64,000 bases of DNA, taken from NCBI RefSeq assembly GCF_001625215.2, contig NC_030383.2, positions 12,784,779 to 12,848,778 of the forward strand, written 5' to 3'. The notes beneath the pieces are model-generated. The model was not told the origin of the DNA. It saw only the letters and a program-made list of their open reading frames with translations, and did no database searches. The DNA is from Daucus carota subsp. sativus. Its lineage: Eukaryota > Streptophyta > Magnoliopsida > Apiales > Apiaceae. Below are positions 12,768 to 53,403 of the stretch, one piece after another (positions within the stretch are counted from its first letter, which is position 1; the number at the start of each line of letters is the position of its first letter). The translations under genes were made by a program, and so were the position numbers.

Positions 12768-13460
12768 TCACTGGCGTCCCCCCATCCCAGGCTGACCCAC
12801 TCCATCCATAAGCATAGCGACAGCCTCTTCATCTTCATCATCAGTTATCTCAATCACCCCAGCCTCTTGGTCTTCCTCCTCCTCATCTTCCCACAACCAG
12901 TTTTCATACTCCTCCTCCGACATGGCTTCGAAATTACCTTTTGTGGTGCCTAAGCCCATGTCCAAGCTCCACAATTCCTTAACCTCCCCGAAGAGCCTCC
13001 TGATGATTACCAGCCTGGTCCTCTGGAGTGAACCCATGTGAGCGAGATATCGAGCAAGAGCATTCTGGGATGGTTCCACAGCACGAACCACCAGCGATAG
13101 ATTTGGGTCAGTCTTCCTCTGGTTGAGTTGCTGGATCACATTCTCATGGTTTCGATCATAGTCCCACATCCACTCCTCCCATTCCTTAACAGCACCAGCA
13201 TTATCAGACTCAAGCTCCACTTTCTCCTCTCCTTCCAGAAACGCCATCTTCAGACCAGCCAAAATGGCCCAGAGCTCATTAGCCCTCTCAGTCAAGTTCC
13301 TAATAGTACCATAAACCATAACAATGATGGTGCCCTTGTGGTCCCTTATCATTATTCTAATACATGAGTCGTTGCCATTCGGGTAGGGTTCTGGCAAGGT
13401 AAATGCATGAACATTCACCTTGACAAAACCTTTGGTAGGAAAGACCCAGGTTTTCTGCAT
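12768..13460 (-). CDS. RNase H-like (RVT_3 type) protein captured by Helitron
   Basis: A 230-aa open frame that starts MQKTWVFPTKGFVKVNVH. Residues ~10-150 resemble the plant RNase H-like domain found at the end of LINE reverse transcriptases and in many stand-alone plant proteins: KGFVKVNVHAF strand, IRDHKGTIIVMVYG, ANELWAILAGLKMA helix, and ELESDNAGAV. The usual first Asp (in VNxDGS) is Asn-Val-His here; Glu in NELWA and Asp in ESDNA remain. Catalysis is therefore unlikely. The C-terminal ~50 residues are acidic and novel (runs of Glu and Asp). It lies inside the Helitron, so it is probably a captured fragment. The frame is open for 230 codons and has a TATA-like signal upstream, so it could be expressed. 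Confidence 0.6.
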   Translation of the reverse strand: MQKTWVFPTKGFVKVNVHAFTLPEPYPNGNDSCIRIMIRDHKGTIIVMVYGTIRNLTERANELWAILAGLKMAFLEGEEKVELESDNAGAVKEWEEWMWDYDRNHENVIQQLNQRKTDPNLSLVVRAVEPSQNALARYLAHMGSLQRTRLVIIRRLFGEVKELWSLDMGLGTTKGNFEAMSEEEYENWLWEDEEEEDQEAGVIEITDDEDEEAVAMLMDGVGQPGMGGRQ

Positions 13461-14689: not shown

Positions 14690-17600
14690 CTAAACTTTCC
14701 TTGCTTTCTTGGCTCTTGCATTTATAAGATTCTGCTCAGCTCTTCTTTTAGCAACATCTTCTTCTTTTTTCTGAGTGAGTTTGTTTTCTATCTCTTCAAT
14801 CCTGGCAGTTATAGTGCTTAGTGCCACTTGCTCCAAAGTATTCTCAGGTGGTGGTTGCTCCAGATTCTTCTTCATCTTCTCTAAGGTTTGTAGATGGACC
14901 ATTTTCTTCAGTTTCTTGAATGTGATATTAAGCTCCATTCCTTCAATTTTCATGATGACCCTTGATGGATGAGCACGAACCCTTGAAGTGTTGTGAACAG
15001 TCTCTACAGCTTTCCTTATTTCCAGAAGATCAATCAGATCTTTGAGCACACTTTTGTCTTCTTTTACCACTGACCACTTAACTGCACCAACTGCACGAGC
15101 AATTCTTTTAGATGAGAATTTTCTAATATCTGCAAGTGGCATGGCAGTGGCCTCAGAATCTTTCTTCTTTTTGAATATAATGGGGGTTGGATTGTAAGTG
15201 ACAACGGGTGCATTGGGATTCTCAGGAACTTCAGGGTTGAGTGGAGGCAGTGGATATGGTGGTTGACGATTGATCGCTGACAAGTCCAAGTCTCTAACAG
15301 CAGCAAAGTTCAGACGATAAGCATATAGCAATTCAGCAGTTAGTCTTCCCTTGCTGGTCCTCGAGCACTTCTCTCTCACTTGAGCTTCCAGATACTTCAG
15401 TATTCTAGGAGAGTAGGTTGATAATGCTTCATCAGTGAGTCCAATACTCTGAATCATACCATCCTTGAAATACTTGATAACTGAAGGCTTGTCGTGAATT
15501 TCAACTCCAATATCAGTGATCCATTCTTCCACCATATCTCTGAATACTTCATTATGCTTTCTGCCGGTTGAGATGATCTTGTTCCTTACCACAAACAGCT
15601 CAGTTAGAGAGAGATCTCTGAGAAACTGACTTGACACATGCTTGAGTCCATGGCCTTCTCTCTGTAGCTCAAATGATATGTTTACCATCCATCCTCTCCT
15701 GGGAAGAACAACAACAGACACAGTAGAAATGATATCATTTAACACCTCATGATAGTCATGTAGATCCTTGTAGTTGTTCCCGAAGGAGTCAAAGATATCT
15801 TTCACTTCATCATCATTGTTTTCTTGAATGACCTCTGGAAAATCAAACACTGCCCTGGCAGCATCCCATTCTTCTCCTTCCTTATGCAAGTTAGCAAGTC
15901 TCCTTTCCCGACGAATCCGTCTTTGATTTTCTAACTTCTCCCTCGCTCTCCTTTGCTCAGCAAAATCTCTAGAAACATCAGCAATGTCTTGAGGATTTGT
16001 AATTTCATACTCTTCAGGAGGGAAGATGTCATTATGATATGCAAGTTCATCAGCAAAGACTTCAGTGTCAGGGATTTCTCCTTCTTCCAGATCATCATCA
16101 TCAGCACCAACCATCCTTATTACCCTGTCATCAACAAACTCAGGGATGTACTCATCATGACTGTAACTGAATTGACCTCTAAGAGCAGAGTCAATTAATT
16201 CTTCTGACACCAGTGTGATCACCTTTTTTCCTCGTGCTTTTTCTGCTGCTTCTGCTGCTCTCTCCCCCTCAGTTGAGTAATCCTCTCTGGAAGATTGAGA
16301 TGCCAGCAACTTAGCCTCGAGAGCAGCCAACCTTTGCTCCATTGTAGATTTAATCTCCACTAACTCCTCCCGTAGAACAAGATTTTCAGCTTCAAGATGT
16401 TGAACTTTGAACTTCAGAGCTTCAAATTCTGTCACAGATACAGTTGGAATTGTAGATTCAATTGTAGGTTGGGTTGTTGGGTTCTCACTTGTTCGTTCTG
16501 TAGGTGTTTCTCTCGTTTCACTCATAGCTTGAACACTCAGTGGGTTAGAGGGTTTCTGTATAGCAAGTTCTGTAGGTGTTTCCCTCTCACTCAAAGAAGT
16601 GCCAGCATCCATAGAAGTTGTACCTGCAGAAGAAATCTTCTTAGCCTCTTCTAGAGAGGTCACAGAAGGTGCAATGAAGGTTCGTGAGCCTTCGTCCTCA
16701 GTTTCCTCGTCAGATGAATCTGAGTCATAGGAAATAAGTTGCCAACTACTCGAAGGTAGTGAGTCCTTAAGTGGATCCTGAGTTGGAATCTCAGAGTGGG
16801 TAGACACAGGGCTCGAAGGATGTGATCCTTGAATTGGCGAAGCGCCCTGGTTTCCCACAACTGCCTTTGACGGCGAATGACTTTGTGACAAGTCCTCTGT
16901 GACTGGCACACTTCCTGATATGAAGGGCTCAGAAACAGATTGTCGTTCACCTTCGAGAGGTGAAGAGTCCCTTAAGGGATCTGGGAATGTTCCTCCCAGG
17001 GGGGTAGACAAGGGTGGAGATTGTGGCAAATCACCCAAGTTTCCCCCAGAAGCCTGTGAAGGCACTTGATCCTGAATTGGATCAGAAACAACAGTGTCTA
17101 TCCCTGACATGGACGACAAAGTGTTGGCAACCGTCAATTCTTCAAACGTGTGTGCAACCTCACTGTGCAATGAAATATCATGTGGTTGAGGTGGTGAAGA
17201 AATAGACATGTCTGCAGTTGTCTCAGGTTCTATTCTCCTTTCCAGACTAGGAGACAGAGCTGCAGTTTCAGAAACATTCTCCTTATGTGGTGCACTTAAG
17301 GCACTTTCTCCCTCGCGCTCAGAAATTACAAATGGTTGGCTGAGGGGTTGAGAAGTTTCTGCTTCAGGAATTTGTGAATTGGTGCCTTGGTTATGAATTT
17401 GTGGGATTTCAAATTCATTGGCACGTGTGAGAGGTGAAGATAATGGATTGGAATCCAGTAAATTCTGAACCCAATCCTCAGGTGCACTGAAAGACAAGTT
17501 GTCAGGATCAAAAGGGATACCTGACTGAAGCATTGGATTGTAGGTGTTGGTGAAGAGTTCATCAATATCCACCATGACATCATTATTAGGTGCAACTGCA

Positions 17601-18652
17601 GTGGATTGGACAGGACTATCCACTTCATCTTCAGAATCAGTGGAATTATCCTGTAGGGAATCCTCTCCTTCAGATTGAGCATTACTCTCAGAGGAGTTCT
17701 CTGCAGCATCCTCCACTATCACTTCTTCCTCTACTTGAGTAGTCTGAGCCTCAGGAATATTGACTTGTGTGATTGGCTCAGGTTCTGGCTCAGCTTGCTA
17801 CACTGGAACCTCTTCAGCAACTACAGGAACAGCAACATGTTGAACATGAGGTGGAGGAAAGTTCTGGTTGTTGAGAAAATCTTGCATTGCCTCAGGAAGC
17901 ACTACATGTTCAATGTTGGAGTAGTTTTGATGATTCTCCAGCATTGAGATCACCCTTGTAGTCATGAAGGAACAGATGACATTGTCTATATTTGGATAGA
18001 CAGCACGTTCAGCAGGGGTCAACATCTGATTCAGCACAATCTGGAAGAATCGAGGGTATAGGAGCACATGATTGTTCTTCCTCAGAGAATCCTGAAAAGC
18101 TCCCATAATCAGATGACCCAGGTTGATCCTTGTGTTCTGAGCAATGGCAATTCCAATTTCTTGATTGAAAGTTGTAATCCCATGGAATCCACCAGTCTTG
18201 GGTGCAAACACATGAGAAATGGAATTAAAGAAGAAATTCCATTCCCGAGGCAAGTGTTTGACATATAACTTTGCTGGAAGTTCTCCGTCTGTTTCCTTTT
18301 GATAGTGGATAGCATAGAAGAAGTTAATCCTTTCTGCTCTGTCAGGTACTGCTTCAAAATCTTATGTTGGTAGTTGTAGAGCAGTATTCAGGGTGTTCTC
18401 AGTGAAAGACAATGTACGTCCCTGAATAGTGCAAGTAAGTCCAAGTACCTGTCCTGCATTTACAACAGAAACAGAAGACAAGAAATCTCGAAGAAGAGAT
18501 TTGTTAAGCATAACAGACTCTGTCATAGCAAATCTGGCAAAAGAAAATTCAGACATATATCGAACCCAGCGTCGATAATTTGCTTGCGTAATTAAATTAT
18601 TATTTTCAACAATTGTGAAATTTGTCTTCGGAATATCAAAATTTGCAGCCAT
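14690..18652 (-). pseudogene. Sirevirus third ORF (env-like position), two in-frame stops
   Basis: One frame of 1,321 codons runs from the ATG at 18652 to the stop at 14690, interrupted only by TAA at 18362-18364 and TAG at 17798-17800. All three open parts are in the same frame, so substitutions are enough to explain the breaks. The first ~290 residues look globular (MAANFDIPKTNFTIVENNNL start; later EWNFFFNSISHVFAPKTGG) and resemble a conserved plant transposon protein domain. A long Ser/Pro/Glu-rich low-complexity region follows, then a coiled coil with regular Leu/Glu heptads (HLEAENLVLREELVEI), then a Lys/Glu-rich C-terminal part ending in AKKARKV. I see no signal peptide or clear membrane segment, so an envelope role is not supported. 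The position after pol matches the Sirevirus third gene. Confidence 0.72.
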
Positions 18653-19957
18653 TTTTAATTAAAATTAAAAATGATTAAAAATTTCGTTTCACGAATAATC
18701 ACAAACAAATATTCACTTATGTTACAAAAATAATTAATTAATAACGCTCCGAAAAACCCTAAATCCAAGAATTTTAGATTTCGATGAAATTACTATATGT
18801 TGTTCCTCTCGAAATTCTAAGATGAATGGGATCGGTTATGCAAATTTTCGACCCTTAGATCACATTGAAAACTAGCCTAGAAGTTGAAAAGTTTCGAAAA
18901 CCCCCTCCGAAAAATAACGATGGATCGTTGAAAAACTGGTATGTATAGAAAGCTTGTAATGAGGGGATCACGAAACTGGTTTCAAATCGAAAAATGGGCA
19001 AGATCTTAGGCAAGTTTTGTTTGATTAAAGGCAATGGCGATTTCGAGTTCTTGAAACAGTGGAGAGTATTTGCATGTGTATGTATATGCGTGTATAGTTA
19101 ACCGAGAGAGTGGATTTTGAAAAACAACTAACTACACACAATATACACATATAGGGCACAGACAAGTTGAGGCGCAACTTGGTTAAAGACCAAGTTGCCC
19201 TCTATAGTATGTACCGGGAATATGGGTAAGCGCAAGTCTTGAAATGACAAAGATGCCCTCTATACATATGAGTATAGAGGCGCAACTTTCCGGGACTTAG
19301 AAAGAAAAACTAAGTCGAGGTATTGGTATATACACATACATGAACCAGAGGCGCAACATTTGACTGGTCAAATGTTGCGCTTGGTTTATAACAGTGTAGT
19401 GCCACTACTTAGAAAACTCTAAGTAAAAAACCTGTATTTAACATACACACAGCAGAGGGGGCGCAACATTTGACTTAAAAAGTCAAAGGTTGAGCTCGGT
19501 GATCAAAATTCACTTAGAATTGATCAAGTAAAAATTTAAATAGAATAAGCTTTAATGTTTAACTAATAGTTATCAGTTAAATATAATTAGAATAATTGTG
19601 CTGCAAATATTTTAATTAAGATTTAATTAATGAACAACTTAAAATAATTTGAATTGCTTCAAAACCATTAATCAAATATAATTAAAATATGAATCAAATA
19701 AACACTTAATATTCATTAATTGAATATAAGCACTTAAATAATTCAAGAAAATTAATTCTAAATATCTAGCACTTAGCAAATAATCACATAATCACATAAA
19801 ATCATGCAAATCATATAGATCATGGCAAATAATTAAAACCAATTATCAGATAAATATGTAAAATACTGGATGCTCTTTGTAAATTCACAAGTCCTGAAAA
19901 TATGTGCATTTTAAAACTTGTGAACTTACGAACAAATTGCAGTTATTTATTGTCTAA
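18653..19957 (-). other. Non-coding block between pol and ORF3
   Basis: No gene is seen here. The block is AT-rich with a cluster of palindromes at 19169-19500 and an A/T-rich stretch (19500-19900) without structure I recognise. It probably serves as leader or control DNA for ORF3. Confidence 0.6.
19169..19500. repeat. Internal cluster of GGCGCAA/TTTGAC palindromes
   Basis: Hairpins at about 19169-19203, 19343-19387 and 19459-19497 repeat the LTR pattern: GAGGCGCAAC, TTTGAC, short loop, GTCAAA, GTTGCGC. The middle one pairs over about 20 bases per arm. The dyad ACTTAGAAAACTCTAAGTA at about 19401-19420 also matches one in the LTR. Confidence 0.8.
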
Positions 19958-22900
19958 TTAATTAGACATATTTAACATCCCAAGTTCACCAACCAGTCTA
20001 GAGAAAGTGGATTCGTCTAGTGGTTTAGTGAAGATGTCTGCAATTTGTTGATCAGTAGGTACGAAGTGTAACTCTACTGTTCCATTCATGACATGCTCGC
20101 GAAGGAAATGATACCTGATATCAATGTGCTTTGTCCTGGTGTGTTGAACAGGATTGTTGGCAATGGCAATGGCACTCGTGTTACCACACAGAATCGGAAT
20201 TTTATCCAACATGAGTCCATAATCTTGTAGTTGATTCCTCATCCACAAGATTTGAGCGCAGCAACTTCCAGCAGCTATGTATTCAGCTTCCGCTGTAGAC
20301 GTAGATACGGAGTGTTGCTTCTTGCTATACCATGACACCAACCTTCGTCCAAGAAACTGACAGCTTCCTGAAGTACTTTTCCTATCAATCTTACATCTTG
20401 CAAAGTCAGAATCTGTATAGCCAATCAGATTAAAACCTGTATCTTTAGGGTACCAAATCCCTAGATTGGGGGTTCCCTTTAGATACCTAAAAATACGCTT
20501 AACAGCTATAAGATGAGACTCTTTAGGATCAGCCTGAAATCTAGCACATAAAGTTGCGAACATGAAATCTGGCCTACTAGCAGTTAAGTACAAGAGAGAG
20601 TCAATCATACCTCGATACTTCGTGATGTCAACTGACTTACCAGATTTGTCCTGATCAAGTTTGACAGCAGTTGGCATAGGGGTTTTGGCAGGAGATGCTT
20701 CCTCCATTCCATATTTCTTCAGAAGATCCTTGATGTATTTAGATTGGCAGATAAAAATATCGTTAGGCTTCTGAATAACTTGAAGTCCTAGGAAGAAGGA
20801 CAATTCTCCCATCATGCTCATCTCATACTTGCTCTGCATCAGCTTAGCAAATCTTTCGCACAAAATATCATTAGTAGAACCAAATATAATGTCGTCGACA
20901 TATACTTGTACAAGAATTATATCATCCTTATGCTTTTTATGGAAAAGAGTTTTATCGATGATACCTCTGGTGAAACCATTAGAAACTTCGAAAGAGTGTC
21001 ATACCAGGTTCGAGGGGCTTGCTTCAGGCCATAAAGTGCTTTGAAGAGAAAGTATACGAAGTCTTCAAATTCCTTGTCTTCAAACCCAGGGGGTTGTTCA
21101 ACATAGACTTCCTCTTCCAGATCACCATTCAGGAATGCACTTTTCACATCCATCTGATATACTTTGAAGTTGGAGTGTGCAGCAAATGCTAAGAACATCC
21201 TGATTGCTTCAAGCCTGGCAACTGGAGCATAGGTTTCATCATAATCGATTCCTTCTTCTTGCGAATAATTCTTTGCAACCAGTCTTGCCTTATTCCTCGT
21301 AACAATACCATCTTCATCCAGTTTGTTTCTAAAAACCCATCCAGTGCCAGTTATAGATTTTCCTTTAGGTCTTGGCACCAGCTTCCAAACTTTCTGCCTT
21401 TCGAATTGATTGAGTTCTTCTTGCATTGCAGATACCCAATCTGGATCACTTAGAGCCTCTTCAACTTTCTTTGGTTCTGTCTGAGACAAGAATCCAGCAA
21501 AGTTGCATTCATTCTGAGTTGCTCTTCTAGTCTGCACTCCTGTGTCTGGATCACCAATGATTTGTTCAACAGGATGGGCTCTACTCCATACCCTTTGTCT
21601 TGGCAGATTCAATCTTAATGATTCACCATAATCATAGTTGTGTTGAGTGTGATGACTAGTAGATCCATTTTGACTTGCTCCCCCTGAGCTGATGCTAGTT
21701 CTATTTGATGATCCTCCACTTTGACCACTGTGACCATGATGATCATTTGTATTGTTGCCAATACTTCCTCCAGATGGTTCAGGATCAGCAGTTCCTTCAT
21801 TTGCATTAGGTTCCCTAGTATCAGCTTCAGGTTCATCTTCTCCTTTATAGATGTCTTCTAAATTCTCAAATTCCAGAGAATCAGATTCATTTTCCTTTTG
21901 AAGACTTGGGAGCTTGGTTTCATCAAATCTTACATTGATGCTTTTAATCAGCTTGTCGTCATTGATCAGATACACCCTGTAGGCCTTAGACTCCAAAGAA
22001 TAACCCAGAAAAATGCCTTCTTCAGCTTTGGCATCAAACTTTCCTAAATGCTCTTCTTTTAACACAAAGCATTTTGCACCAAACACATGAAAGTAACTCA
22101 GTGATGGTTTTCTGTTGGCCATTACTTCATAAGGAGTCTTATCCAAATCCTTGTTTATCAGGGTACGATTTTGAGTATAGCAAGCAGTACTCACAGCTTC
22201 AGCCCAGAAATAGATTGGAAGTCTTGATTGACTAATCATTGTCCTTGCTGCTTCAATCAAGGTTCTGTTCATCCTTTCTACGACACCATTTTGTTGTGGA
22301 GTCCTTGGAGCTGAATACTGACGAGAGATGCCCTTATCAGTACAGAACTCATTAAGAACAGCATTACGAAATTCTGTTCCATTATCTGATCTGATTGCCC
22401 TTACTGGCAAATCTGCTTCCTTTTCAATCTTTTTGATATGATCAATGATGACTTGTGCTGCTTCATCCTTTGAATGTAAGAATAATACCCATGTGTATTT
22501 TGAGTAGTCATCGACGATCACAAGAGCATATCTTTTTCTTGATATAGAAGGAATGTTGACTGGTCCAAACAGATCCATATGAATCAGTTGAAGGGGTGAA
22601 CCAATGTCAGTCATGCCTTTGCTCCTGTGTGATGCTTTCTTTGACTTCCCTTTTTCACATGCATCACAGAGTCCTTCTTGACAGAATTCTTTCTGTGGCA
22701 GACCTCTCACAAGTTCTCTTTTGACTAAAGAATTCATAGTCTTAAAGTTCAAGTGTGAGAGCTTCCGATGCCATAACCAACTATCATCAGCAGAGGCCTT
22801 GCTGTAGAAACACTTGACCTCCCCCTTACTTGCTGAATCTATGTCGGCTATAAACAAACTTGATTTTCTTACACCACGGAGTGTAAGATCCTTGTTCTTC

Positions 22901-23202
22901 CGGTTCTGGATTAAGCAAACTTCCTTCTGAAAGATTACGTCGTATCCTTTGTCACAGAACTGACTGATACTCAGTAAATTGTGCTTGAGTCCTTCTACCA
23001 GAGAGATATCTTCAATGATGACATTTCCAACTTTCAGCTTACCATATCCCGTTGTAAATCCTTTGCTGTCATCTCTAAAGATTACAATTGGGCCGGTTCT
23101 CATCACCACATCTATGAGCAGGGACTTTTCTCCAGTCATGTGTCTTGAACAACCACTATCAAGAACCCACACAACTTTGCTTTTCTTTCCTGTGCCCTGC
23201 AT
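19958..23202 (-). pseudogene. Sirevirus pol polyprotein, frameshifted
   Basis: Copia-type pol. In order: aspartic protease with the active-site [13 protein letters not shown]-pre-integrase region ([10 protein letters not shown]), integrase core with the [14 protein letters not shown] and GVVERMNR motifs, then reverse transcriptase ([34 protein letters not shown]). A frameshift near 20985 breaks the RT. The RT continues in another frame with the YVDD active site (about 20894-20905), then FFLGLQV and the RNase H part (DSDFARCKIDRKSTSG, EAEYIAAGSC, KHIDIRYHFLRE) to the stop at 19958. Apart from the shift the chain is nearly complete, which suggests modest age. Confidence 0.85.
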
Positions 23203-23213
23203 TCACAAATGGA

Positions 23214-25793
23214 TTAAACTTTCTTTGGTACCCAGACCCTCTTGGGTCCAGGTGGTTTAGTTGAAAAAGGAGTATCAACAGAATCTGTTTTAACATGTGC
23301 TTGTTCAGGGGTGACTGGACTCTTCTCCTTTTTAGTCTTAGCAGATGTGCTTTTAGACTTGGAGTTTGGAGTTTCCTTCTTCTTAGAAGGACTAGCAGTC
23401 TTTGCCACAGGAGCAATAGAAGGTGCAGGCAAATTCATATTTATTGCAGGTGATGCAGAAAAAGATGCATTTAACATGGTAAAACATGCAGACATCATAT
23501 TCATAGCACATTGCATGCAACCTACTTTAACACATGGCAAATGAACAACATTCATGTTAACAGTATTAGGCATGCTAGTGACAGGAGTATCTATTTTAAT
23601 CATTTTACAAGCATGAGTAAGATGATTGGTAGAAATGCAATTGTTACAAACCTTTCTAGCACTGGGAGTCCTTGAGTTGGTTTTCTTAGCATCTAGCTTA
23701 CCATTCCTGTTGTTCTTCTTTTTGTTGGAACTAGTACTTCCTAATCCAGTTTTATCAGAATCTTCTCTAACTTGGGGATTAGAAGGTACGTCTTGTGTTT
23801 CCTGTTTTATTTGAGGCTTAACAACTTCCTCATTTTTCAACTCTTCCTTGATGACAAGGTCTTCTTCTATCAGAGGTTCTGTTTGTGCCTTTCTAAAGAT
23901 AGGGGTCTTGGCGTTCTTTTAGAATTTTAGGTACATTTGTTCCTTTAGGAGCATTCTCAGTTCTTGCTGAAACAAATATGCCTTCATTTTCTTTTCTCTT
24001 CTTTCTTTTAGAACTTTCTAAAGAACTATAGTCAAGGCGAATAGCAACCTTCTTATCGACCCTTTGACTATCCAAGATCTCTTTCTGTAGAAAATCAGAT
24101 GTCTGATAGGCCTTAAGCTTAGTTTCTAGGTCAGCTATCTGGGACCTAAGGGATTCTTCAATTTCTGCATTACACTTCTCCTTATTCTCTAGATATTCAA
24201 TTCTATCTTTAAGGTTAGTGTTCATGAGTTTCTCTAAAGCTAATTCGTCTATGCGTTCTTCAAGTTTAGCTATCTTTAGAGAAAGACTACAGTTATCTGA
24301 TTCTGAAGCTAATAAACTAGTGTGCAAGTTGTACATCTCTTGACCTAGTTCATTTATAGTCTTTTTATAATCAGCAGTAGTCATGTCATCAACAGAAATT
24401 TCAGGAGATACCTGAGATGGAGATTCCTCGACAGTGTCAGCCATTAATGCAAATGCATAATTGCTCTGAACAAGTTCATCATCAGAATCCGTGTCATCCC
24501 AGCTTTTTCCCTCAGCAATGTAAGCCCTTCCTTTATGCTTGGCTACCATTGCTTCCAACTTAGCTTTCAGCTTTTCATTCTCTTTCTTCAGATCCTCATA
24601 AGAATTTTTCTTATCATATGAGTTGCTTCTTTCTTTGACAGGAGCCGCCTTGGGTTTCCTGCACTCTGTTGCAAAGTGACCTAAGTCATTGCAGTTGTAG
24701 CATCTGACCTTACTCTTGTCGTACATGTTTGGTTTGTAACTGCCAGTACTTCTAGACCCTGACCTTGAGTATCCTCCTTTACTTTGAAACTTGTTTCCTG
24801 AAGTTTTCTTGTACCGGGGGTTCATCCTAAACTTGATGTGCTTGAACCTTGCAGCCATATAAGCCATGGACTTATCTTCCAGCTGCTCCAGCTCTTCCTG
24901 AGTATAGAACTCATCCTCCGGTTCACTAGAAACTTCATCAATTTCAGCTTCTACAATCTCAGACTTGGTAGAAGGATAATCAGCTTTGTCAGATGAACAA
25001 TCACTCTGAGCAACAGTGTGATCATTAATACCATATTCAACTACTTGCTGATAACCAAAGTACGGTTGATCAGCAATAAGTGCAGTGGTCTTTTGTAAGG
25101 CCATACTCTTGGCTTCAGATGATCCACTACCATATATAATCTTTCTTTGTTCGAGTTCCATCTCAAACGTCTTCAGTTTCCCAAACAGCTTTTCCAAAGT
25201 CATAGTTCTGAAGTTGCTTCTTTCACGGATGGTCTCAGTCTTCACAACTAGATGGGGTGGCATCACAAATGAGAACTTTCTGTTAATCTCTTTCTGTGGA
25301 TAAGTCTTTCCATGCAGGGTAAGTTCATTCAACAGCAACATGAACCTTTCGTAGATTTGAGAAATGTTCTCTTCAGGTATTGCCTGAAATGCTTCATATC
25401 TGGCAATTAGCATATCGTATCTGTTTTTCCTGACTTCTTCAGATCCCTCCATCAATGCCTCTATAGTATCCCACATCTGCTTTGAAGTGGATGTGTCATA
25501 GTCTTGGTCATTGATTCAACAATTATGAGTTGCAGATTATGATCATGTGCGATATATTCCTTGTCAGTCTCAGTGTATTCGCTTTTCTCTTTAGGAACAG
25601 ACTTCTGTGGAATGCGAACACCATTTTCAACAGATTCAGGAATAATCTTCATAGGCACAAACGGACCATTTTCCAGAATCCCAATGTACATGGGATTAAC
25701 AACTCTGATGTACAGCAACATCTTCATTTTCCAGTTGTTGTAGTCATTCTTGTCAAATGGAGGTACTTTGATTCCTAACTTGTGTGTCGACAT
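23214..25793 (-). pseudogene. Sirevirus gag, two frameshifts
   Basis: One gag of about 860 codons is spread over three frames: 25793-25461, 25476-23893 and 23840-23214. Breaks lie near 25485 and 23905, where the neighbouring frame continues the protein without loss. Order: capsid region (NDYNNWKMKMLLYI start; UBN2-type helices), a classic CCHC zinc knuckle in CYNCNDLGHFATEC (near 24690), a long coiled-coil region, and a second knuckle-like motif in CNNCISTNHLTHAC (CX2CX4HX4C, near 23610-23650). The C-terminal Pro/Lys-rich tail ends in PKRVWVPKKV. Gag packages element RNA. The long C-terminal extension after the first knuckle is typical of Sirevirus gag. Confidence 0.82.
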
Positions 25794-44111: not shown

Positions 44112-45012
44112 TCATTCGCCTTGTTCATGGCAATATCTTGTCCAAATTTACTTAGAGATCAACTAACAGGACGTCAAATGTTTCGGATATGAGTTTTGAT
44201 TTTATATACACGAAGATAAACGATATAGATATAAAATATATTTTTTGATATAATACACACACATATATTACATAATATAAATCTACAAATTCTACATATG
44301 ATTATGTTAATATTAAATTTCAACATATATATATACACATATAAAATACTACATAAAAATATAAGTTTAGAATATATATTAGTTAGATTTTATTAATATA
44401 TTTATATTATACACACACGAAAGTGACATAAAAAATATTCGACATATTTTAAAACCGATATAAATTAAATTACACATACAAATTTTGAGATTTAAAGAAT
44501 TGAACATGACTTCCATGTTCAATACATAAAATACAAATCCACACAACAAAATATTATTGACAAATCTCCTCACTGAGTTTTCATATGAAACTCGTGTAAT
44601 TTTTAGTTTATTAAAAACTGAATTATTTATAGAGTTATTAATCTCAAATATCACTATTTTGTAGGAAAAGATTTTTCTTTAATCATTTTCTAAATAATGT
44701 TATTTCAAATACAATTTGTATGTTGTGTTTATAATATCGGACAAAAATATAATTTAAATTATAATTTCAGGTGAAAATACAACTTCAAATCATATTTTTT
44801 CTCAAAAAAAATTAAATACTAACACCAAATTACGTTTTGAAATAACTATTGAGACTATTTTCCTGAAAATGACATTGACACGCCTGGGCCTTTTCTCTTT
44901 TCAGGGTACATTAGTTTTTTTTTTTTTTACAAACAAAATAAAAAGAAGAAACATGAAGGTCACCTGGAGGTTGGATAGATGTTAGCTACACAGCCCGTTT
45001 AGTTGAATGGCA
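44112..45012. other. Displaced promoter region of the RsmI-type gene
   Basis: Before the Gypsy insertion this DNA lay directly upstream of the methyltransferase ORF. The original ATG is at 45007-45009, followed by GCA. The stretch is AT-rich (44200-44850) and then more balanced (44870-45006), as expected for promoter and leader. It is now separated from the coding exons by 5.6 kb. Confidence 0.8.
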
Positions 45013-45315
45013 TGTAAGCAGTCAAGATCTACTTCTAGGCAATTGCCATTTACGGAAGAAGAATAAGATGAGAAATAAGAGAGAAGAAGAGAAGGAGAAG
45101 ACAACAATAATAAAACAACTGATATCAATATTCATGCTTTTTCCCTTCCACTTCATGGTACATATACCAGCGTACCAGCTGCAGGACCACTGCCAGCTGT
45201 CCCAATTAGTACTCAGCATAACGGTAATATAAACCAGAATATAAAATAAACCAAACTACTCAAAACGACAGTGTTCCACTAATTCTACTACTTATCTATC
45301 CAGCCATATGTGACA
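45013..45315 (-). repeat. 3' LTR of the Gypsy element
   Basis: Starts TGTAAGCAGTC on the plus strand and ends GTGACA. It reads the same as the copy at 50316-50618 over all 303 bases by eye. Confidence 0.96.
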
Positions 45316-45329
45316 ATACCCTTTCCTTG
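45316..45329 (-). other. Polypurine tract of the Gypsy element
   Basis: Minus-strand CAAGGAAAGGGTAT lies directly before the 3' LTR. Confidence 0.75.
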
Positions 45330-45345
45330 AAAAAAAACCTTGACC

Positions 45346-48300
45346 TCAAGGTTTAAAGTCTGGGAATTTCTTGATCAGTTTTTCATACTCTTCCCAAGTA
45401 GAGTCTTCAGGCAATGAATCTGTCCACTTGACCAGTACCAATGCAGCAGGTCTGTTATTTTTCTTAATCAACCGCCTTTCCAAAATTGCTTCTGGCTTCC
45501 TGTCCCTTTTCTCTTCTTCAGCTCCTGGGGGTTTAGTTTGAAGGAAGTTCCCAGTCCCCAGCTTCTTCTTCAATTGTGATACATGGAAAGTATCGTGTAT
45601 CCTTGCTGTACTAGGCAGGTTTAACTTATAAGCTACTTTCCCCACCTTTTTGGTGATCGTATAAGGTCCATAGAATCTCGCTGCCAGCTTTTCAACTCTG
45701 GAATCTTTGAGGGAGTGCTGTTTGTATGGTTGCAACTTCAGAAATACCTCCTCTCCTTCATTGAATTCTCTTTCACTTCTCTTCTTATCGGCATAGTGCT
45801 TCATACGCTCTTGAGCTTTAACAAGATTTCGCTTCAACAAAGTCTGTAATTCTGCCCTGTTCCTCATGAATTCATCTATGCTCGCAATAGAAGACTTCTG
45901 TGCTTGATGATAGTTCATACTAGGAGGATCTTTACCATACAGAGCCTTATATGGGGACATTTGGATTGCTGAATGGTGTGAAGTGTTGTACCACCATTCA
46001 GCCATGCTGAGCCACTTATGCCACTGATTGGGTTTCTGATTTGCCAAGCACCTTAAGTACATTTCAACACACTGATTAAGTCTTTCACTTTGCCCATCTG
46101 TTTGGGGGTGATAGGCTGTAGAATAATTAGAACTTGTACCCATCTTATTGAATAGTTCGGCCCAAAATCTGCTTGTAAATATTTTGTCCCGATCAGTGAT
46201 TATGCTTTTAGGAGGTCCATACAATTTAATGACAACATCCAGTAATTTCTGGGCTACCTGAGTGGCTGAAAAAGGGTGTTGGAAAGATAGTAGGTGGCAA
46301 TACTTAGTGAACTTATCGATGACCACCATAATAGTGTCCCTGTTTTCTGATCTTGGCAACCCCTCTATGAAGTCCATGGTTATAACCTCCCATGCTTGGT
46401 TCGGAATAGGAATAGGCTGCAACAATCCTGGAGATTTAACATGTTCAGATTTGAACCTTTGACAAATTTCACACTCTTGCACCCACTTTACAACGTCCTG
46501 GCTCATCTTTGGCCACCAAAACAAATTAGCGATCCTTTTGTGGGTCGCATTTACTCCTGAGTGTCCTCCTTCTCCAGTATCATGCAAGTTCTGGATAATT
46601 TCTCTCCTCACCCCATTGCTAGCTCCTACATAAAGCTTCCCTCTTTTTCTTAAGTCACCATCCACCATAGTGAATTCTGGCTCAGCTGAGGGGTCTATAG
46701 CCAATGTTGTCAAAATCTGTTGGACCTCTTCATCATTCTCTAGGGATTTCACAATATCCTCCTTCCATTTAGGTACCACCAAACTGATTCCAGCAAGTGC
46801 CCCTTGTTTTTCTTCCCCCGTCACTGTTTGTTGACCATGCAACCTAGACAAAGGGTCTGCAACAACATTGTCTTTCCCCTTGTTGTAGACTATGCTGTAA
46901 TCAAATCCAAGTAGCCTGGAGAGCCATTTTTGTTGGGCAACAGTACTGATTTTTTGGTTTAGAAAGTACTTAATGGATTGTTGATCTGTTTTAATGACAA
47001 AATGCCTGCCCATTAAGTATCCTCTCCATTTTTGCACTGCCAAAACTACCGCCATGAGTTCTTTCTCATAGGTTGATAAACCTATGTTCTTAGGTGACAA
47101 AGCCTGACTAAGGAAGGCTATAGGTCTTCCTTCCTGCATTAGCACAGCACCAATACCAGATTTACTTGCGTCTGTCTCCACTACAAAGGTTTTTGTGAAA
47201 TCTGGCATCCGGAGAACTGGGGTTTCACTCATGATCTGTTTAAGATGATTAAAAGCTCTGTCAGCCTCCTCATTCCATTGAAAAGCCCCCTTTTTAAGTA
47301 GATCTGTGAGTGGTTTACTCAGCATTCCATACCCTCTCACAAATCGCCTATAATACCCTGTGAGTCCGAGAAATCCTCTCAGGGATTTGATATTTTGCGG
47401 TACTGGCCAGCTTCTCATAGCTTCCACTTTTTGAGTATCAGCTGCCACTCCTTGGCCACTAATGATGTGACCAAGGTACTCAACTTGTTCTTGTGCAAAG
47501 GCACACTTGCTTTTCTTTACAAAAAGATGGTTTTGCTTAAGAATTTCAAACACTTTTCGCAAGTGCTCCATATGTGACTTCATATCAGGGCTGTAAACTA
47601 GAATATCATCAAAGAAAACAAGGACAAACTGCCGTAAATGCTTGGAAAATACCTCATTCATCACACACTGAAATGTGGCAGGAGCATTGGTGAGGCCGAA
47701 AGGCATAACTAAGAATTCATAATGCCCGAAGTGGGTTTTGAATGCAGTTTTGTGTACGTCTTTGTCCTGCACTCTGATCTGATGGTAACCGCTTCGAAGA
47801 TCTAACTTGGTAAAATACTTGCTGCCATGCAATTCATCCAAGAGCTCCTCTATTATGGGTATAGGGAATCGATTTTTGATCGTGATAGCATTTAGGGCTC
47901 TATAATCGACACAGAACCTCCAGGTGTTGTCCTTCTTACGTACAAGCAATACTGGTGAGGCATAAGGAGAGCTGCTATGCTGGATGATGCCGTGCTCTAA
48001 CATTTCCCTTACTAAACGTTCTATTTCAGTTTTCTGCAGATATGGGCATCTGTAAGGGTTGGCATTGACAGGTTTGCTACCCTCTATTATGGGGATGAAG
48101 TGATCCTGTGCCCTGAGGGGAGGAAGCCCTTTCGGAGTGTCAAAAATCTGCTCAAACTCTTGTATTAGCCCTTGAACTTCTGTTGGAATTTCACCTGATT
48201 TTTGTTCCGTATTGGCGTCAACATTGGTAAGTTGCACCAAAAAATATGATTCCTCTTTCTTGAGCCACCTGCCATCATCCTCTAATTGTACCCTGACTTC

Positions 48301-50301
48301 CTTCGGGGGTGTTAGATTTTGCTTGAGCTGCACCATCTTACCCTTCCATTTTATTTGGACCTCCCTTTTATCAAAATCAAACCATACAGGGCTGACTTGT
48401 CTTAGCCACTGCACCCCCAGCACCAAATCATAACCTCCCAAGGGTATAGCATGAAAATTTGAAGTGAAGTCAACTCCTCCCATAGTCCACTTCATGTTAA
48501 TAATTTTCCGTCCACAATTACGAGTGGTTCCATCAGCCAAAGTGACTTTCATATCGCTACAAATTTCAGTATTCAGATTCATGTTCTTAGCGAGATTTTG
48601 TGATACAAAATTGTGAGTGGATCCAGTGTCTAGTAATATCTCCACCTTTCTACCCTTCATCGTCCCTTGAAATTTTAATGTATGTAATCCATGAGTGCCA
48701 CTAAGAGCATGTATGGATACCCCACAGTCATCTTCACCATCTTTACAACCATCATCTTCGGAGGATGACAGAACATGTTCTTCATCAGGTGTGTTTCCTC
48801 CTTCATTGTCTGTGTTCTCATCTCCCACCACATAAAACAACTGCTGCTTGACACACTTGTGACCTGGTACAAAAGCTTCATCACAATTATAACATAGTCC
48901 CTTCTCCCTTCTAATTGCCATCTCAGCTGGAGTTATTCTTTTTATTGATGGGTATTTGGTAGAAGAGGATTTGCTTTTTTGAGTATATTGGGAGCCGCCA
49001 ACTGGTTTATGGCCAGAATAAGTACCCTTTCCCATAATCAGGGAGTTCCCACCCTTGTAACCAGATTTTTGTGTGCTTTCCACTCTTTTTTCTAATAAAG
49101 CAACCAAAAGTTCCTGCTCTTTGGCCTTGTCCATAGCATCTTGTAAAGTAGGAGGCTTATATACATATAACGCCTGCTGAATGTCTTTTCGCAGCCCACT
49201 CAAGAAACTCGATAAATAGAATTCCTCCGTATGAAATCGGTTTCGTGAAATCATATAACCTCTCAGATCTTCAAACTCAGCTATGTAGTCATCAACACTA
49301 CCCTTCTGAGTGAGCTTATTAAACTGGCCAATCAAGTTCTCTTGGCTACCTGTCGAAAACCTCTGCAAAAGAAGAGCTACAAAATTGTCCCAAGAAATGT
49401 AAGGATGTATTTCCTGGACCGTTTGATACCACCTGTCAGCTTCACCTTCTAAATAGAGAGCAGCGTAAACCACCTTTGTGTGTGGTTCCATGAGAGGGTT
49501 CAACATGAAGAATTTCTCAGCTTTCTTGACCCAACTCCTCACCTCTTTGCCATTAAAAGGCGGGAAGTCCATTTTTGGGAATTTATAATGTGGTTGGAGG
49601 GTGGTTTGGGGTCTGAAGGTGGTGTGGTCTGAATATGGGGGTCGAAGAGGCTGAGTGACAGAGTGAGGCACTGTATAATGAGTGGACATGGAGTGTGGGA
49701 GTGGCGGAGTAGGATAAGTATAAGACTGGGGTATCGTAGTGAGGGGAACAGAGTGGTCGGAGAGACGAAACCCTGGGAGCAAAGGGGTGACGATGTTTTG
49801 GGTGGTGTTGGTGAAGAGTTGATGGCCATCGTTGGGTCGAGGATTGTGGGTGGAAGCTATAGTATGTGGAATTGACCCAAAGGACAGAGCTCCAAGCTCA
49901 TGTGTAATATCATGGAGGGGTTGAGAGACATTATTCCCAAACTGAATGTAAGAGTGAGCACTAGGTGGGTGTGTGACAGTTTGGGGTGTAGACAAGAGGG
50001 GAAGAGATTGTGTACCTGGAGGGCCATAGTTATTCAAAGATCTGGTTGAGGTTTCATGTAGCTGATTTTTGAGGACACCCATTAACTCCGAAAACTTCAG
50101 GGAGATATCTTGATTTGCGGACTGAATCTGAGTTGTGAGAGTAGACATGTGGTCTCCCATCAGATTAAGTCTTTCATTAATTTGAGAGATCTGCAACTGA
50201 GTTTCTTCTTGATTCTCTGTAAGGTTTTGATGAATCTCATCCACAGTAGTCGCTAACGTACGTAACTCTTTATCAACTTGTTGTATCGTCGGCCCAGTCA
50301 T
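45346..50301 (-). CDS. Gag-pol polyprotein of the Gypsy chromovirus
   Basis: A single frame of 1,651 codons from MTGPTIQQ. The frame is open a further 9 codons into the LTR, but those lie over the primer site, so I chose the ATG just inside it. Order: coiled coil (residues ~10-85), gag (FPKMDFPPFNGKEVRSWVKK; WYQTVQEIHPYISWDNF), zinc knuckle-like CYNCDEAFVPGHKC, protease LLDTGSTHNFVS, reverse transcriptase with DLRSGYHQIRV, MPFGLTNAPATFQ and the active site in FFDDILVYS, RNase H with VETDASKSGIGAVL, integrase with an HHCC finger ending CEICQRFK, the core motifs TMDFIEGLP, TDRDKIFTS and HPQTDGQSERLN, and a C-terminal chromodomain-like segment (VKWTDSLPEDSTWEEYE). No stop or shift is present. 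Confidence 0.95.
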   Translation of the reverse strand: MTGPTIQQVDKELRTLATTVDEIHQNLTENQEETQLQISQINERLNLMGDHMSTLTTQIQSANQDISLKFSELMGVLKNQLHETSTRSLNNYGPPGTQSLPLLSTPQTVTHPPSAHSYIQFGNNVSQPLHDITHELGALSFGSIPHTIASTHNPRPNDGHQLFTNTTQNIVTPLLPGFRLSDHSVPLTTIPQSYTYPTPPLPHSMSTHYTVPHSVTQPLRPPYSDHTTFRPQTTLQPHYKFPKMDFPPFNGKEVRSWVKKAEKFFMLNPLMEPHTKVVYAALYLEGEADRWYQTVQEIHPYISWDNFVALLLQRFSTGSQENLIGQFNKLTQKGSVDDYIAEFEDLRGYMISRNRFHTEEFYLSSFLSGLRKDIQQALYVYKPPTLQDAMDKAKEQELLVALLEKRVESTQKSGYKGGNSLIMGKGTYSGHKPVGGSQYTQKSKSSSTKYPSIKRITPAEMAIRREKGLCYNCDEAFVPGHKCVKQQLFYVVGDENTDNEGGNTPDEEHVLSSSEDDGCKDGEDDCGVSIHALSGTHGLHTLKFQGTMKGRKVEILLDTGSTHNFVSQNLAKNMNLNTEICSDMKVTLADGTTRNCGRKIINMKWTMGGVDFTSNFHAIPLGGYDLVLGVQWLRQVSPVWFDFDKREVQIKWKGKMVQLKQNLTPPKEVRVQLEDDGRWLKKEESYFLVQLTNVDANTEQKSGEIPTEVQGLIQEFEQIFDTPKGLPPLRAQDHFIPIIEGSKPVNANPYRCPYLQKTEIERLVREMLEHGIIQHSSSPYASPVLLVRKKDNTWRFCVDYRALNAITIKNRFPIPIIEELLDELHGSKYFTKLDLRSGYHQIRVQDKDVHKTAFKTHFGHYEFLVMPFGLTNAPATFQCVMNEVFSKHLRQFVLVFFDDILVYSPDMKSHMEHLRKVFEILKQNHLFVKKSKCAFAQEQVEYLGHIISGQGVAADTQKVEAMRSWPVPQNIKSLRGFLGLTGYYRRFVRGYGMLSKPLTDLLKKGAFQWNEEADRAFNHLKQIMSETPVLRMPDFTKTFVVETDASKSGIGAVLMQEGRPIAFLSQALSPKNIGLSTYEKELMAVVLAVQKWRGYLMGRHFVIKTDQQSIKYFLNQKISTVAQQKWLSRLLGFDYSIVYNKGKDNVVADPLSRLHGQQTVTGEEKQGALAGISLVVPKWKEDIVKSLENDEEVQQILTTLAIDPSAEPEFTMVDGDLRKRGKLYVGASNGVRREIIQNLHDTGEGGHSGVNATHKRIANLFWWPKMSQDVVKWVQECEICQRFKSEHVKSPGLLQPIPIPNQAWEVITMDFIEGLPRSENRDTIMVVIDKFTKYCHLLSFQHPFSATQVAQKLLDVVIKLYGPPKSIITDRDKIFTSRFWAELFNKMGTSSNYSTAYHPQTDGQSERLNQCVEMYLRCLANQKPNQWHKWLSMAEWWYNTSHHSAIQMSPYKALYGKDPPSMNYHQAQKSSIASIDEFMRNRAELQTLLKRNLVKAQERMKHYADKKRSEREFNEGEEVFLKLQPYKQHSLKDSRVEKLAARFYGPYTITKKVGKVAYKLNLPSTARIHDTFHVSQLKKKLGTGNFLQTKPPGAEEEKRDRKPEAILERRLIKKNNRPAALVLVKWTDSLPEDSTWEEYEKLIKKFPDFKP

Positions 50302-50302
50302 G

Positions 50303-50314
50303 GCTCTGATGCCA
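50303..50314 (-). other. Primer binding site of the Gypsy element
   Basis: Minus-strand TGGCATCAGAGC lies one base from the 5' LTR. It pairs with the 3' end of initiator-type methionine tRNA with one change from the usual TGGTATCAGAGC. Confidence 0.85.
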
Positions 50315-50315
50315 C

Positions 50316-50618
50316 TGTAAGCAGTCAAGATCTACTTCTAGGCAATTGCCATTTACGGAAGAAGAATAAGATGAGAAATAAGAGAGAAGAAGAGAAGGAG
50401 AAGACAACAATAATAAAACAACTGATATCAATATTCATGCTTTTTCCCTTCCACTTCATGGTACATATACCAGCGTACCAGCTGCAGGACCACTGCCAGC
50501 TGTCCCAATTAGTACTCAGCATAACGGTAATATAAACCAGAATATAAAATAAACCAAACTACTCAAAACGACAGTGTTCCACTAATTCTACTACTTATCT
50601 ATCCAGCCATATGTGACA
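50316..50618 (-). repeat. 5' LTR of the Gypsy element
   Basis: 303 bp, same as 45013-45315. Its outer end supplies the A of the downstream gene's ATG. Because the element reads leftward, its own promoter points away from that gene. Confidence 0.96.
50611..50616 (+). promoter_or_regulatory. Start-stop upstream ORF at the LTR end
   Basis: ATGTGA: an ATG directly followed by a stop codon, one base before the methyltransferase ATG at 50618. If transcripts enter from the LTR, ribosomes would meet this minimal uORF first. Such start-stop elements are known to hold back translation of the next ORF; the effect here is inferred. Confidence 0.6.
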
Positions 50619-53403
50619 TGGCAGCTTCAGCAGTTATGTCGAGTAAAGCCCTTGTGCTTATGCGTTCTTCTTCTTGTATTGCCCCTCGAAATTTCATCTT
50701 CCTCATCCCAAAACTAAAGCCAACTCCCACCCTTTATCATATCAATACTCTCTCATTTTTCTGTTCCACTCCTCAAAACCCTAAAGAACACCCTCACCTT
50801 ACTGCCCAAGAACAACAATCCCCATCTAAAAAGGTGAACATTTCATAACCCTCTTTTTATTGTTATAATTATAATGGTTTTAGCATAATTTGTTGTTTTT
50901 GTGATATGGGTCGTTCATTTTATAGGGAATTTTGAAGCCTGGTTTGTATCTTGTAGGCACCCCTATTGGCAATCTTGAAGATATTACTCTTCGGTTAGTG
51001 CCAAATACTACCTCTTTACTTTAAAAATTAATTTCTTTTATGCTTGCCTGCAAACTCGTAAATGTAGTACTAGGGTGTCCTGGTGCCAATTTCGAGTTTC
51101 GGGTTGTGATGGTTTAATAATGCTTATTGCAATGTGATTAAAATCAATGTTCTTTAAGGGATAAATCTTTAGTGACCGAGTACTAGTAATTGGATTAATC
51201 GATTAATGTCGTGTTGCATTTGCATTTGGTGGGGTCATTAATTGATATGATTTAATGGTTGTATTTTTGCTAGTGCTCTGAGGGTCTTAAAATCAGCAGA
51301 TGTAATACTTTCTGAAGATACAAGGCATTCAGGGAAGTTGCTTCAACACTATGATATCAAAACCCCCCTTGTATGTCCTATTTGCTTCCTTGTGTAAAAT
51401 GTTGTAGTAGAATTGTATTATTTGTTTAACTGTATATTTAATCGTAAGCTTTAGAATTTCAGCTGAGTTATCACAAATTTAATGAGTCTCAAAGGGAACA
51501 AGTGGTGTTGAAGAGGTTGCAAGAAGGTGAGATTGTCGCTTTGATCAGTGATGCTGGAACACCTGGCATTAGTGATCCTGGAATGGATTTGGTAAGAAAG
51601 CTTATCTTTACTGAACTGATGGTTTTCCTTTCCTTTTTTTATCACATGAAAATTAACTTGGTATCTCTAGTCTCTACGGCTCTGACCAAAACTAGAATAT
51701 TCTTATATAACTTGGTATCTCTAGTCTCTACGGCTCTGACCGAAACTAGAACTATTCTTTTTCGTAATATAATTCCTTTGGTTTAGGTCTCATGACAACC
51801 CAAAATATGTTATAAATTCATTTCTTGTATATAGGTGTGCATACTTTCTGTTAGCATCAGTCTTTATGCTTAGTATAACTCTTCATGTTTAGCAAATAGT
51901 CTTGCTTTAATAAACTCATCATAGCTAAATGGAGTAGGCTTTTGTACCTTCTGCTGCATCCATTCACAAGCCTTCTTTTACATCTTTTTAATCTTGATGC
52001 AGGCCAAGTTATGTACGGATAATAATATACTCGTTACACCCATTCCTGGTCCGTCTGCTTTAGTAGCTGCTGTTTCAGCCTCTGGATTGCCGACTAATGA
52101 GTTCACATTTGGTAATTTTCTTACACATTCAGTGCACTTTTACTAGCGTAAAAAGCTTTGAGTTGTTATTGCTAAGATTCAGCATGTATGCAGTTGGATT
52201 TCTTCCTAAGCATGCGGGAACAAGGAAAGAGAGGTTGTCAGTTTCTGCAAATGAAGCAACTACCCAGATATTTTTTGTTCCTCCACACAAGCTTTGCCAG
52301 TTTCTTGAAGAGACTTCTTTAGTATTTGGAGACTCTAGGTAAAAATCTGTATCAGATTCATTACGACAGTAATTATTTAAAACCTGGTGTAATTGCACAA
52401 AGTGTAAAAATTCTTTGAAAAATTTATTTTAAAGAATATTCTTCTCATGACAAATAGTACAATCATGATTAAATCTGGATTTGCTTTAGGAGATGTGTCA
52501 TGGCTAGGGAGCTTACTAAGATACACGAAGAGGTGAATTTCAATATTTAATCTAAACGTACATGTTACTAATGATAATTGTGTCACTTGATTTACTAATC
52601 AAATGATAACTTCTCATTAGTTCTGGCGTGGAACCCTAGGTGATGCAAAAATAGTGTTCTCAACTCGCATGCCAAAGGGGGAGATAACATTCTTGATTGA
52701 AGGAAAGGCGGTATGCATTGCTGAAACTCCATCTGAATCTCAGTTAGAAAATGAACTTGGAGAATTGATATCCAACGGCCATAGTCTTTCGGAGGTATAA
52801 TTTGCTTCTTTCTGCCGTTCATTGTTCTAATCTGTAAATATATGAATGCCTCGGATTATACTTTGTAGATGCTTGATACATGGTGTGCGTGTAGTTTATA
52901 GATCTTCGATAATAAATTGTCAGAGTTTGGAGGTTGAATGATATATGTGATAATATTGTATTTTGTTACCAATTTTAGTATCCTACCATCATTCATTGAG
53001 TTTTAGTTCTATATCTTGGTTTGATTATTCTAGATCTAATTATTACATGCTATCTACAATTTGTTGCACATTGCAATGAAAATATCTTACAAAGTGATAA
53101 TTTAGTCCATAATGAAAGCTGTATTTTTACTTTTAGAGTTAAACATTTTCTCTGGAAAGTAGATCCATCTATGTGCTAATCCTTCTCGATAGATAATACT
53201 ATAGAGTATAAACCCTGCTTCCAGTTGATTGTGTGTTGTTGCTGTTTAATCAGGCCGTCAAAGTTGTGGCTGCCGGAACATCTACAAGACGAAAAACAAT
53301 ATATTCACTTGCACTTAGAAAGTTTGGGAAGCAAGTTGAGGCAGAAGACGATGTTCTGAGGACTCTCTGTAAGTGGCTAAATGCTGTCGATGGTTTGTTA
53401 TAG
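50618..53403 (+). CDS. rsmI-like: RsmI-type 16S rRNA (cytidine-2'-O)-methyltransferase, likely organellar
   Basis: Nine exons: 50618-50833, 50926-50993, 51274-51370, 51463-51591, 52003-52111, 52194-52338, 52490-52532, 52621-52794, 53254-53403. Together 376 codons plus stop. The first ~70 residues are Ser/basic-rich (MAASAVMSSK start) and fit a plastid transit peptide. The rest is a complete tetrapyrrole-methylase-fold enzyme: LYLVGTPIGNLEDITLRALR, SEDTRHSGKLLQHY, LISDAGTPGISDPG, TPIPGPSALVAAVSASGLP, VGFLPKHAG, RELTKIHEEFWRGTLG, and the C-terminal LRKFGKQVEAED. In bacteria RsmI 2'-O-methylates C1402 of 16S rRNA; a plastid-type role is inference. The 3' end is unsure: read-through ends at 53403, while splicing from 53368 to 53504 would give a TGA at once. 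The ATG is partly LTR-derived (see the Gypsy element). Confidence 0.85.

Follow-up and report, generated by a model that had tools for sequence, protein, structure and literature searches.

The window analysed here is a stretch of 64,000 nucleotides from the carrot genome (Daucus carota subsp. sativus), corresponding to C3:12784779-12848778 in the 441-Mb assembly of 11 contigs that was used for all genome searches. Between 50.6 and 53.5 kb it carries a gene which, judged by the similarity of its predicted product, is an RsmI-type rRNA methyltransferase (16S rRNA C1402 2′-O-methyltransferase). A complete retrotransposon with long terminal repeats (LTRs) is inserted at the start codon of this gene.

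An LTR element at the start codon of a methyltransferase gene

The features of the insertion and of its host gene are collected in Table 1. The two 303-bp LTRs show no mismatch when compared with each other and read TGTAAGCA...ATGTGACA on the + strand. Their TG...CA ends, together with the 5-bp duplication of target DNA, are those of a Ty3/Gypsy chromovirus, and so are the polypurine tract and the primer binding site, which we take to be of the tRNA-Met type and which is one base off TGGTATCAGAGCC. A domain search with five pieces of the long open reading frame (ORF) recovered gag/capsid, protease, reverse transcriptase (RT), RNase H, integrase and a chromodomain (Pfam Chromo, E=1.2e-06); no Pfam match was found for the N-terminal 300 aa. 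The order gag - protease - RT - RNase H - integrase, with the chromodomain at the C-terminus, is again that of a chromovirus. Identical 303-bp repeats, an exact 5-bp target duplication, a primer binding site, a polypurine tract and an open gag-pol ORF place the insertion far beyond chance. Since there are 0 differences between the LTRs the insertion is young, and at the often used rate of 1.3e-8 substitutions per site and year its age is probably less than about 0.4 million years. At 50299-50314 (- strand) the gag ATG abuts the primer binding site (TGGCATCAGAGCCATG), with zero leader between this site and the coding sequence.

The host gene matches carrot protein record P0001 (LOC108215278 isoform X1) at 100% over 97% of the query, and the exon chain of the window encodes residues 4-365 of that record, all identical. 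PF00590 (TP_methylase) is listed for P0001 and for its relatives, the similarity extends over the full length, and the names are those given by the sources. One methyltransferase intron holds a near-tandem repeat at 51654-51751 (54-bp spacing, 44 nt aligned, 98%).

Two start codons can be read at this locus. The left flank ends TTGA-A-TGGCA, in which the original ATG GCA occupies 45007-45012, and at the other end the final A50618 of the right LTR is followed by TGGCAGCTTCAGCAG, which yields a second ATG. An earlier note on this DNA had described an insertion with TGGCA duplications at the start codon, an element that reads opposite to the gene, and an ATG rebuilt from the last base of the LTR plus the duplication. 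Both copies of the duplication are present, the element's ORF lies on the - strand, antisense to the + strand gene, and the rebuilt ATG stands where the note had placed it. The note's rule that a CA-ended LTR puts back the A ahead of the duplication holds by construction; because this ending and a target duplication together restore an ATG, no special cause is needed. Without splicing, the frame opened by the original ATG runs into the LTR and meets a stop there after 19 codons. Upstream of the rebuilt ATG the nearest in-frame stop lies 30 codons away, with no in-frame ATG between. Two short upstream ORFs, read by eye, are present in the native leader (44953-44985 and 44979-45002) if transcription starts further upstream.

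Table 1. Features of the insertion and of the methyltransferase gene, in coordinates of the window (a slash marks an exon-intron border)
Feature	Position	Strand	Remarks
Original ATG	45007-45009	+	joined to native leader; start of the annotated carrot protein if the element is an intron
Left target duplication TGGCA	45008-45012	+	from the sequence
Complete Ty3/Gypsy chromovirus	45013-50618	-	5,606 bp; LTRs, target duplication, primer binding site, polypurine tract, coding domains
3′ LTR (element orientation; left)	45013-45315	-	303 bp
Putative 5′ splice site GTAAGC (CAT/GTAAGC)	45014-45019	+	LTR bases 2-7
Inferred new intron	45014-50624	+	5,611 nt, phase 1, inside codon 3
Polypurine tract AAGGAAAGGGTAT	45316-45328	-	adjoins 3′ LTR
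Open gag-pol frame	45346-50301	-	first ATG behind primer binding site at 50301-50299
Primer binding site TGGCATCAGAGCC	50302-50314	-	1 base off the form of 14/19 relatives
5′ LTR (element orientation; right)	50316-50618	-	303 bp, identical to left LTR
Branch-point-like CTAAT	50582-50586	+	A at 50585; 21 nt before AG 50606, 39 nt before AG 50624
Competing 3′ splice site TATCCAG/CC	50605-50606	+	within LTR; in frame, would give MASICDMAAS...
Rebuilt ATG	50618-50620	+	LTR's last A + TG of duplication; intronic on preferred reading
Right target duplication TGGCA	50619-50623	+	from the sequence
Inferred 3′ splice site AG (TGGCAG/CT)	50623-50624	+	A of duplication + target's next G
Remainder of coding exon 1	50625-50833	+	exon chain
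Coding exon	50926-50993	+	
Coding exon	51274-51370	+	
Coding exon	51463-51591	+	
Coding exon	52003-52111	+	
Coding exon	52194-52338	+	
Coding exon	52490-52532	+	
Coding exon	52621-52794	+	
Coding exon	53254-53368	+	
Last exon	from 53461	+	completes stop codon split by last intron

The annotated N-terminus and the element as a candidate intron

When the exons are chained from the rebuilt ATG the protein begins MAASAVMSSK, whereas the carrot record P0001 begins MASSAVMSSK. The closest relative, P0002 from Heracleum, reads MAASVVAMSSK, that is, MAAS like the rebuilt frame. We enumerated 31 GT/GC donors (44900-45329) and 31 AG acceptors (50300-50699) together with all ATGs from 44700. An open frame into the protein was obtained with 75 combinations, 9 of which start at ATG 45007, and the first 30 residues of P0001 came from a single one: ATG 45007, donor 45014 and acceptor 50624. 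This combination reads ATG GCA T/GTAAGC ... GGCAG/CT TCA and gives MASSAV. Both of its splice sites lie near the ends of the element and would remove it whole, as in the Arabidopsis case Evelknievel discussed below, here on the strength of the DNA and the protein record.

On this reading the first + strand base of the LTR (T) is the last base of exon 1, and the donor's GT is formed by LTR bases 2-3. Insertion of the element adds 5,606 + 5 = 5,611 bp, and the inferred intron removes 5,611 nt. Compared with the empty site, the spliced sequence has equal length and differs by one base, a G to T change that turns codon 3 from GCT to TCT and Ala3 into Ser3. Splicing would be length-neutral because the edge of the duplication falls inside the target's AG, between its two letters; if the acceptor is taken to be the first AG met at the junction or past it, this holds for 4 of 180 exon-1 insertion positions. 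A solo-LTR allele, should one exist, is predicted to use both these splice sites, with an intron of about 308 nt.

Several searches bear on the origin of the letters in P0001. The single contig given for this record measures 64,558,952 bp, precisely the size of the window's own contig (C3, 64,558,952 bp), and the six other contigs seen (C1, C2, C4, C6, C7, C9) have sizes unlike it. When P0001 was searched against the genome, all 8 matches (E <= 0.001; 10/10 candidates scored) fell in C3:12835396-12838145, the host locus, which argues that an empty paralogue is not the source of the record. A PPR-DYW protein at 634-3282 (882/882 identical) has a record whose contig is of the same size; that row is the window's own protein and adds little.

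From these observations we propose the following sequence of events. A chromovirus, young and complete, landed antisense in codons 1-2 of the methyltransferase gene, and the native promoter would still drive transcription into the original ATG GCA. Exon 1 would close with the LTR's first base, and LTR bases 2-7, GTAAGC, would act as 5′ splice site; the right LTR, read antisense, would provide the CTAAT that resembles a branch point and a stretch rich in pyrimidines, and the 3′ splice site would be the AG that the target has past the second duplication (GCAG/CT). The resulting mRNA would keep its old length with one base changed, and the gene would survive with Ala3 replaced by Ser3. At AG 50624 the predicted junction joins the left exon ...TTGAATGGCAT to CTTCAGCAGTTATG, i.e. 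...ATGGCAT + CTTCAGCAG. A start at the original ATG with splicing of the whole element leads to Ser3, as in the carrot record, and we consider it quite likely that at least some of the transcripts run from the native start and have the element removed as an intron. As a spliceosomal intron the element would be tolerated, the gene would keep using its native promoter and leader, and the rebuilt ATG is most likely a bystander inside the intron. The earlier note had concluded that the methyltransferase protein is unchanged and that the promoter and leader are cut off, breaking regulation. Neither claim is supported: residue 3 is Ser in the carrot record but Ala in the rebuilt frame, and the original ATG still carries the native leader; this interpretation is probably wrong.

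Splice signals and alternative readings

The donor CAT/GTAAGC agrees with CAG/GTAAGT at 7 of 9 positions, compared with 5-6 for the gene's own nine donors, and at least 7 matches are found at 44 of the 3,500 + strand GTs in the window, the LTR donor included. In a matrix built from the gene's nine donors it scores 6.0 (own donors, 4.8-9.4), a value reached by 4.2% of all GTs, and with leave-one-out matrices it stands above 6 of the 9. In the opposite orientation the LTR end would supply GTCACA, with 3/6 donor matches versus 5/6 for the actual one.

A number of points weigh against removal of the element through AG 50624. The matrix score of the LTR donor is lower than that of eight of the gene's nine donors. 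On the acceptor side, where the matrix is small, home-made and drawn from the nine acceptors of the host gene only, the context of AG 50624 is poor, 78.7% of all AGs scoring as well, and AG 50606 has a good context (11.8% of AGs as high) and is in frame too. P0001 may be a computed gene model. It represents 9 member sequences, and its letters could in principle stem from a member off this contig; a search with the N-terminal fragment gave no carrot-like row among the best 120 of 267, the top row matching at 56% over 99%. Finally, an Arabidopsis study counts only 16 annotated introns exceeding 5 kb (PMC5575664). In favour of removal, the same study describes introns of this size, made mainly of transposons, as spliced (PMC5575664). 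With leave-one-out scoring, one of the gene's nine own acceptors scores below AG 50624, and the use of the weaker acceptor in the record may hint at transcript evidence behind it.

The strongest alternative overlaps with the explanation proposed above and differs solely in the main acceptor. The element would be spliced out mainly via the LTR's own AG 50606, so that the mRNA would retain 18 extra nt (MASICDMAASAV...); the predicted junction would join ...TTGAATGGCAT to CCATATGTGACATGGCAG, i.e. ...ATGGCAT + CCATATG. This AG has the better context (TCTACTACTTATCTATCCAG, which the end of the right LTR carries along with the CTAAT motif), lies 21 nt behind CTAAT and keeps the frame, but the six extra residues that it would add are absent from P0001. 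Its use as the main acceptor is a serious possibility, if a doubtful one. Since AG 50606 and AG 50624 are both in frame, both isoforms may exist.

Another reading has the gene severed from its promoter, with translation, if any, starting at the rebuilt ATG on transcripts initiated within or close to the right LTR. This ATG does exist and would give MAASAV, and bidirectional LTR promoter activity has been raised as a possibility for Evelknievel (PMC6238269). However, this reading predicts Ala3, and the carrot record on the 64,558,952-bp contig has Ser3; judging from its orientation, the right LTR's own promoter should face away from the gene, and the left ATG and leader are intact. We regard promoter loss as unlikely.

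It is also conceivable that P0001 comes from an insertion-free carrot with a G-to-T change in codon 3, as a single substitution yields TCT and the record represents 9 member sequences. Against this, the record's contig equals the window's chromosome in size to the base, a second gene locus was not found in the 441-Mb genome, residues 4-365 hold no other difference, and the required change is exactly the one that splicing predicts, all of which makes this origin very improbable. An assembly artefact at the junction can practically be dismissed, given that the exact target duplication, identical LTRs, primer binding site, polypurine tract and open ORF are the marks of a real insertion.

Relatives, surroundings and comparison with elements known to be spliced

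We asked whether the putative donor is a family trait. The LTR was not found elsewhere in the 441-Mb genome, either with a 35-base pattern (<=3 mismatches) or in a DNA search with all 303 bp, and the pattern had 0 matches in viral contigs. Identical LTRs mark a recent insertion, and yet these searches showed no copy from which the element could have come; its source may have disappeared, may lie beyond the assembled sequence or may belong to a different carrot lineage. A genome search with the RT piece returned at least 132 matches including the element itself, the next best being 82% identical and the one after that 65%. Twenty relatives were taken: the best 19 after the element and then, three rows (C3, C4, C1) being skipped, a C6 copy with a 1,622-aa frame. 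Compared by their LTR sides only, 19 of the 20 gave LTRs of 246-342 bp, with TG...CA ends and a 5-bp duplication; the LTR script left one relative (rel18) unresolved, and likewise the window's element, which served as control and in which the alignment ran past the LTR ends.

None of the 19 resolved relatives has GTAAG at the antisense LTR end, and the closest one (82% in the RT piece) reads TGTAACA there. A splice cassette common to the family is mostly rejected on this count, the donor being absent in 19/19. As far as seen the donor is private to this copy, and it looks like an accident rather than a family trait. Introners, by comparison, are many similar introns derived from one family, which is not what was found here: in 441 Mb this LTR was found at this element alone, and 0/19 resolved relatives have GTAAG at the antisense LTR end. 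Were the LTR's donor spliced to its own AG 50606, 1+12+5 = 18 nt would stay in the mRNA, a length divisible by three wherever the element inserts; with this AG the frame would be open at 120 of 180 exon-1 positions. The relative group is young, as the best LTR alignment is 100% in 8/19 relatives. The primer binding site of the element has C at a position where 19/19 resolved relatives have T. Reina elements are small and have short LTRs, and by size alone our element fits the carrot lineage DcReina. In a carrot survey, DcReina comprises 146 intact copies, is found more often near genes, and averages 0.64 Myr in age, less than the other table rows listed (PMC9324142).

A related chromovirus (C3:12769033-12769929 of the assembly, G000) lies ~15 kb to the left of the window, with 54% identity in the RT piece and an open frame of 1,654 aa. 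The window itself also holds a Copia-type element at 14690-25476 (- strand), with a zinc knuckle at 23893-25476, integrase and RVT_2 at 19958-23202, and a 1,010-aa ORF at 14690-17722 for which Pfam gave nothing at E 0.001. A long ORF after pol is reminiscent of SIRE elements. Between 9 and 32 kb no pair of direct repeats >=80 nt was found that could be the element's LTRs, and an RVT_3 ORF at 12768-13460 may or may not belong to it. A direct repeat of 99 nt at 9748-10007 has two copies that start 161 bp apart and are 89% alike.

Could such an insertion be more than a single case? An LTR that ends in TGTAAG, with a 5-bp duplication ending inside a target AG, would produce a length-neutral intron in a coding exon in one step, at the price of one base in the mRNA. 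That this is a regular source of plant introns genome-wide is a speculative and rather improbable extension of our data. The combination forms a simple rule for which plant genomes can be scanned, and the origin of plant introns is, in our judgement, an open question. If the rule held from genome to genome, complete LTR elements, which may be mobile, would regularly supply new introns, and reference proteomes would already hold residues partly written by LTR bases, Ser3 being the example here. For this locus, the reading shifts from a gene severed from its promoter to intron gain at an early stage, with identical LTRs, an open frame and splice sites that can still be read. Insertions that seem, from the DNA alone, to break a gene may be rendered silent by splicing.

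Open-literature searches found no published account of the carrot case (LOC108215278), and they are our sole basis for calling it unpublished. The 412 element in Drosophila vermilion is reportedly a precedent, which our literature search did not show. The nearest parallel is Evelknievel (EK), an LTR retroelement in exon 13 of Arabidopsis CMT1 which, in the passages that describe it, is spliced out whole in three variants detected by reverse transcription-polymerase chain reaction, whereas the carrot case is known from sequence and a protein record (PMC6238269). In one EK variant the donor is the last base but one of the 3′ LTR, the LTR that lies upstream; this corresponds to LTR base 2 in the direction of the gene, with the orientation inferred from the published description, and is the same position as in carrot. 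Another variant forms its AG from the LTR end and the first base of the duplication. The EK variant with the LTR donor (58%) shifts the frame, whereas LTR donor plus target AG in carrot is in frame and length-neutral; the frame-restoring EK variant (25%) uses a non-canonical GC donor, and the in-frame form in carrot is that of the protein record (PMC6238269). The EK work also suggests that read-through requires the element to be silent (PMC6238269).

Other systems share part of this design. After an induced burst of ONSEN in Arabidopsis, a full-length LTR retrotransposon was removed as a new intron, as proposed for carrot, with at least one of the insertions described being exonic; the element is a different one and the insertions were experimental (PMC12112155). 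In the Spodoptera frugiperda gene SfCHS2, where Yaoer is inserted, the GT combines the last base of the duplication with the first T of the LTR, and element-free transcripts were found, but the host is an insect, the insertion lies at an existing exon-intron border, and the old intron's acceptor is used (PMC11249258). Introners resemble the carrot element in that transposable elements make the intron, some families carry one splice site and the target gives the other, and mRNA length is mostly kept. They differ in occurring as sets of similar introns, with between 5 and more than 2,000 copies in a genome, and the survey that describes them reports none in land plants, whereas carrot presents one 5.6-kb LTR element (PMC9860276). 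The kind is thus known already, and the carrot element is a length-neutral member of it that sits at a start codon and appears in a public protein record.

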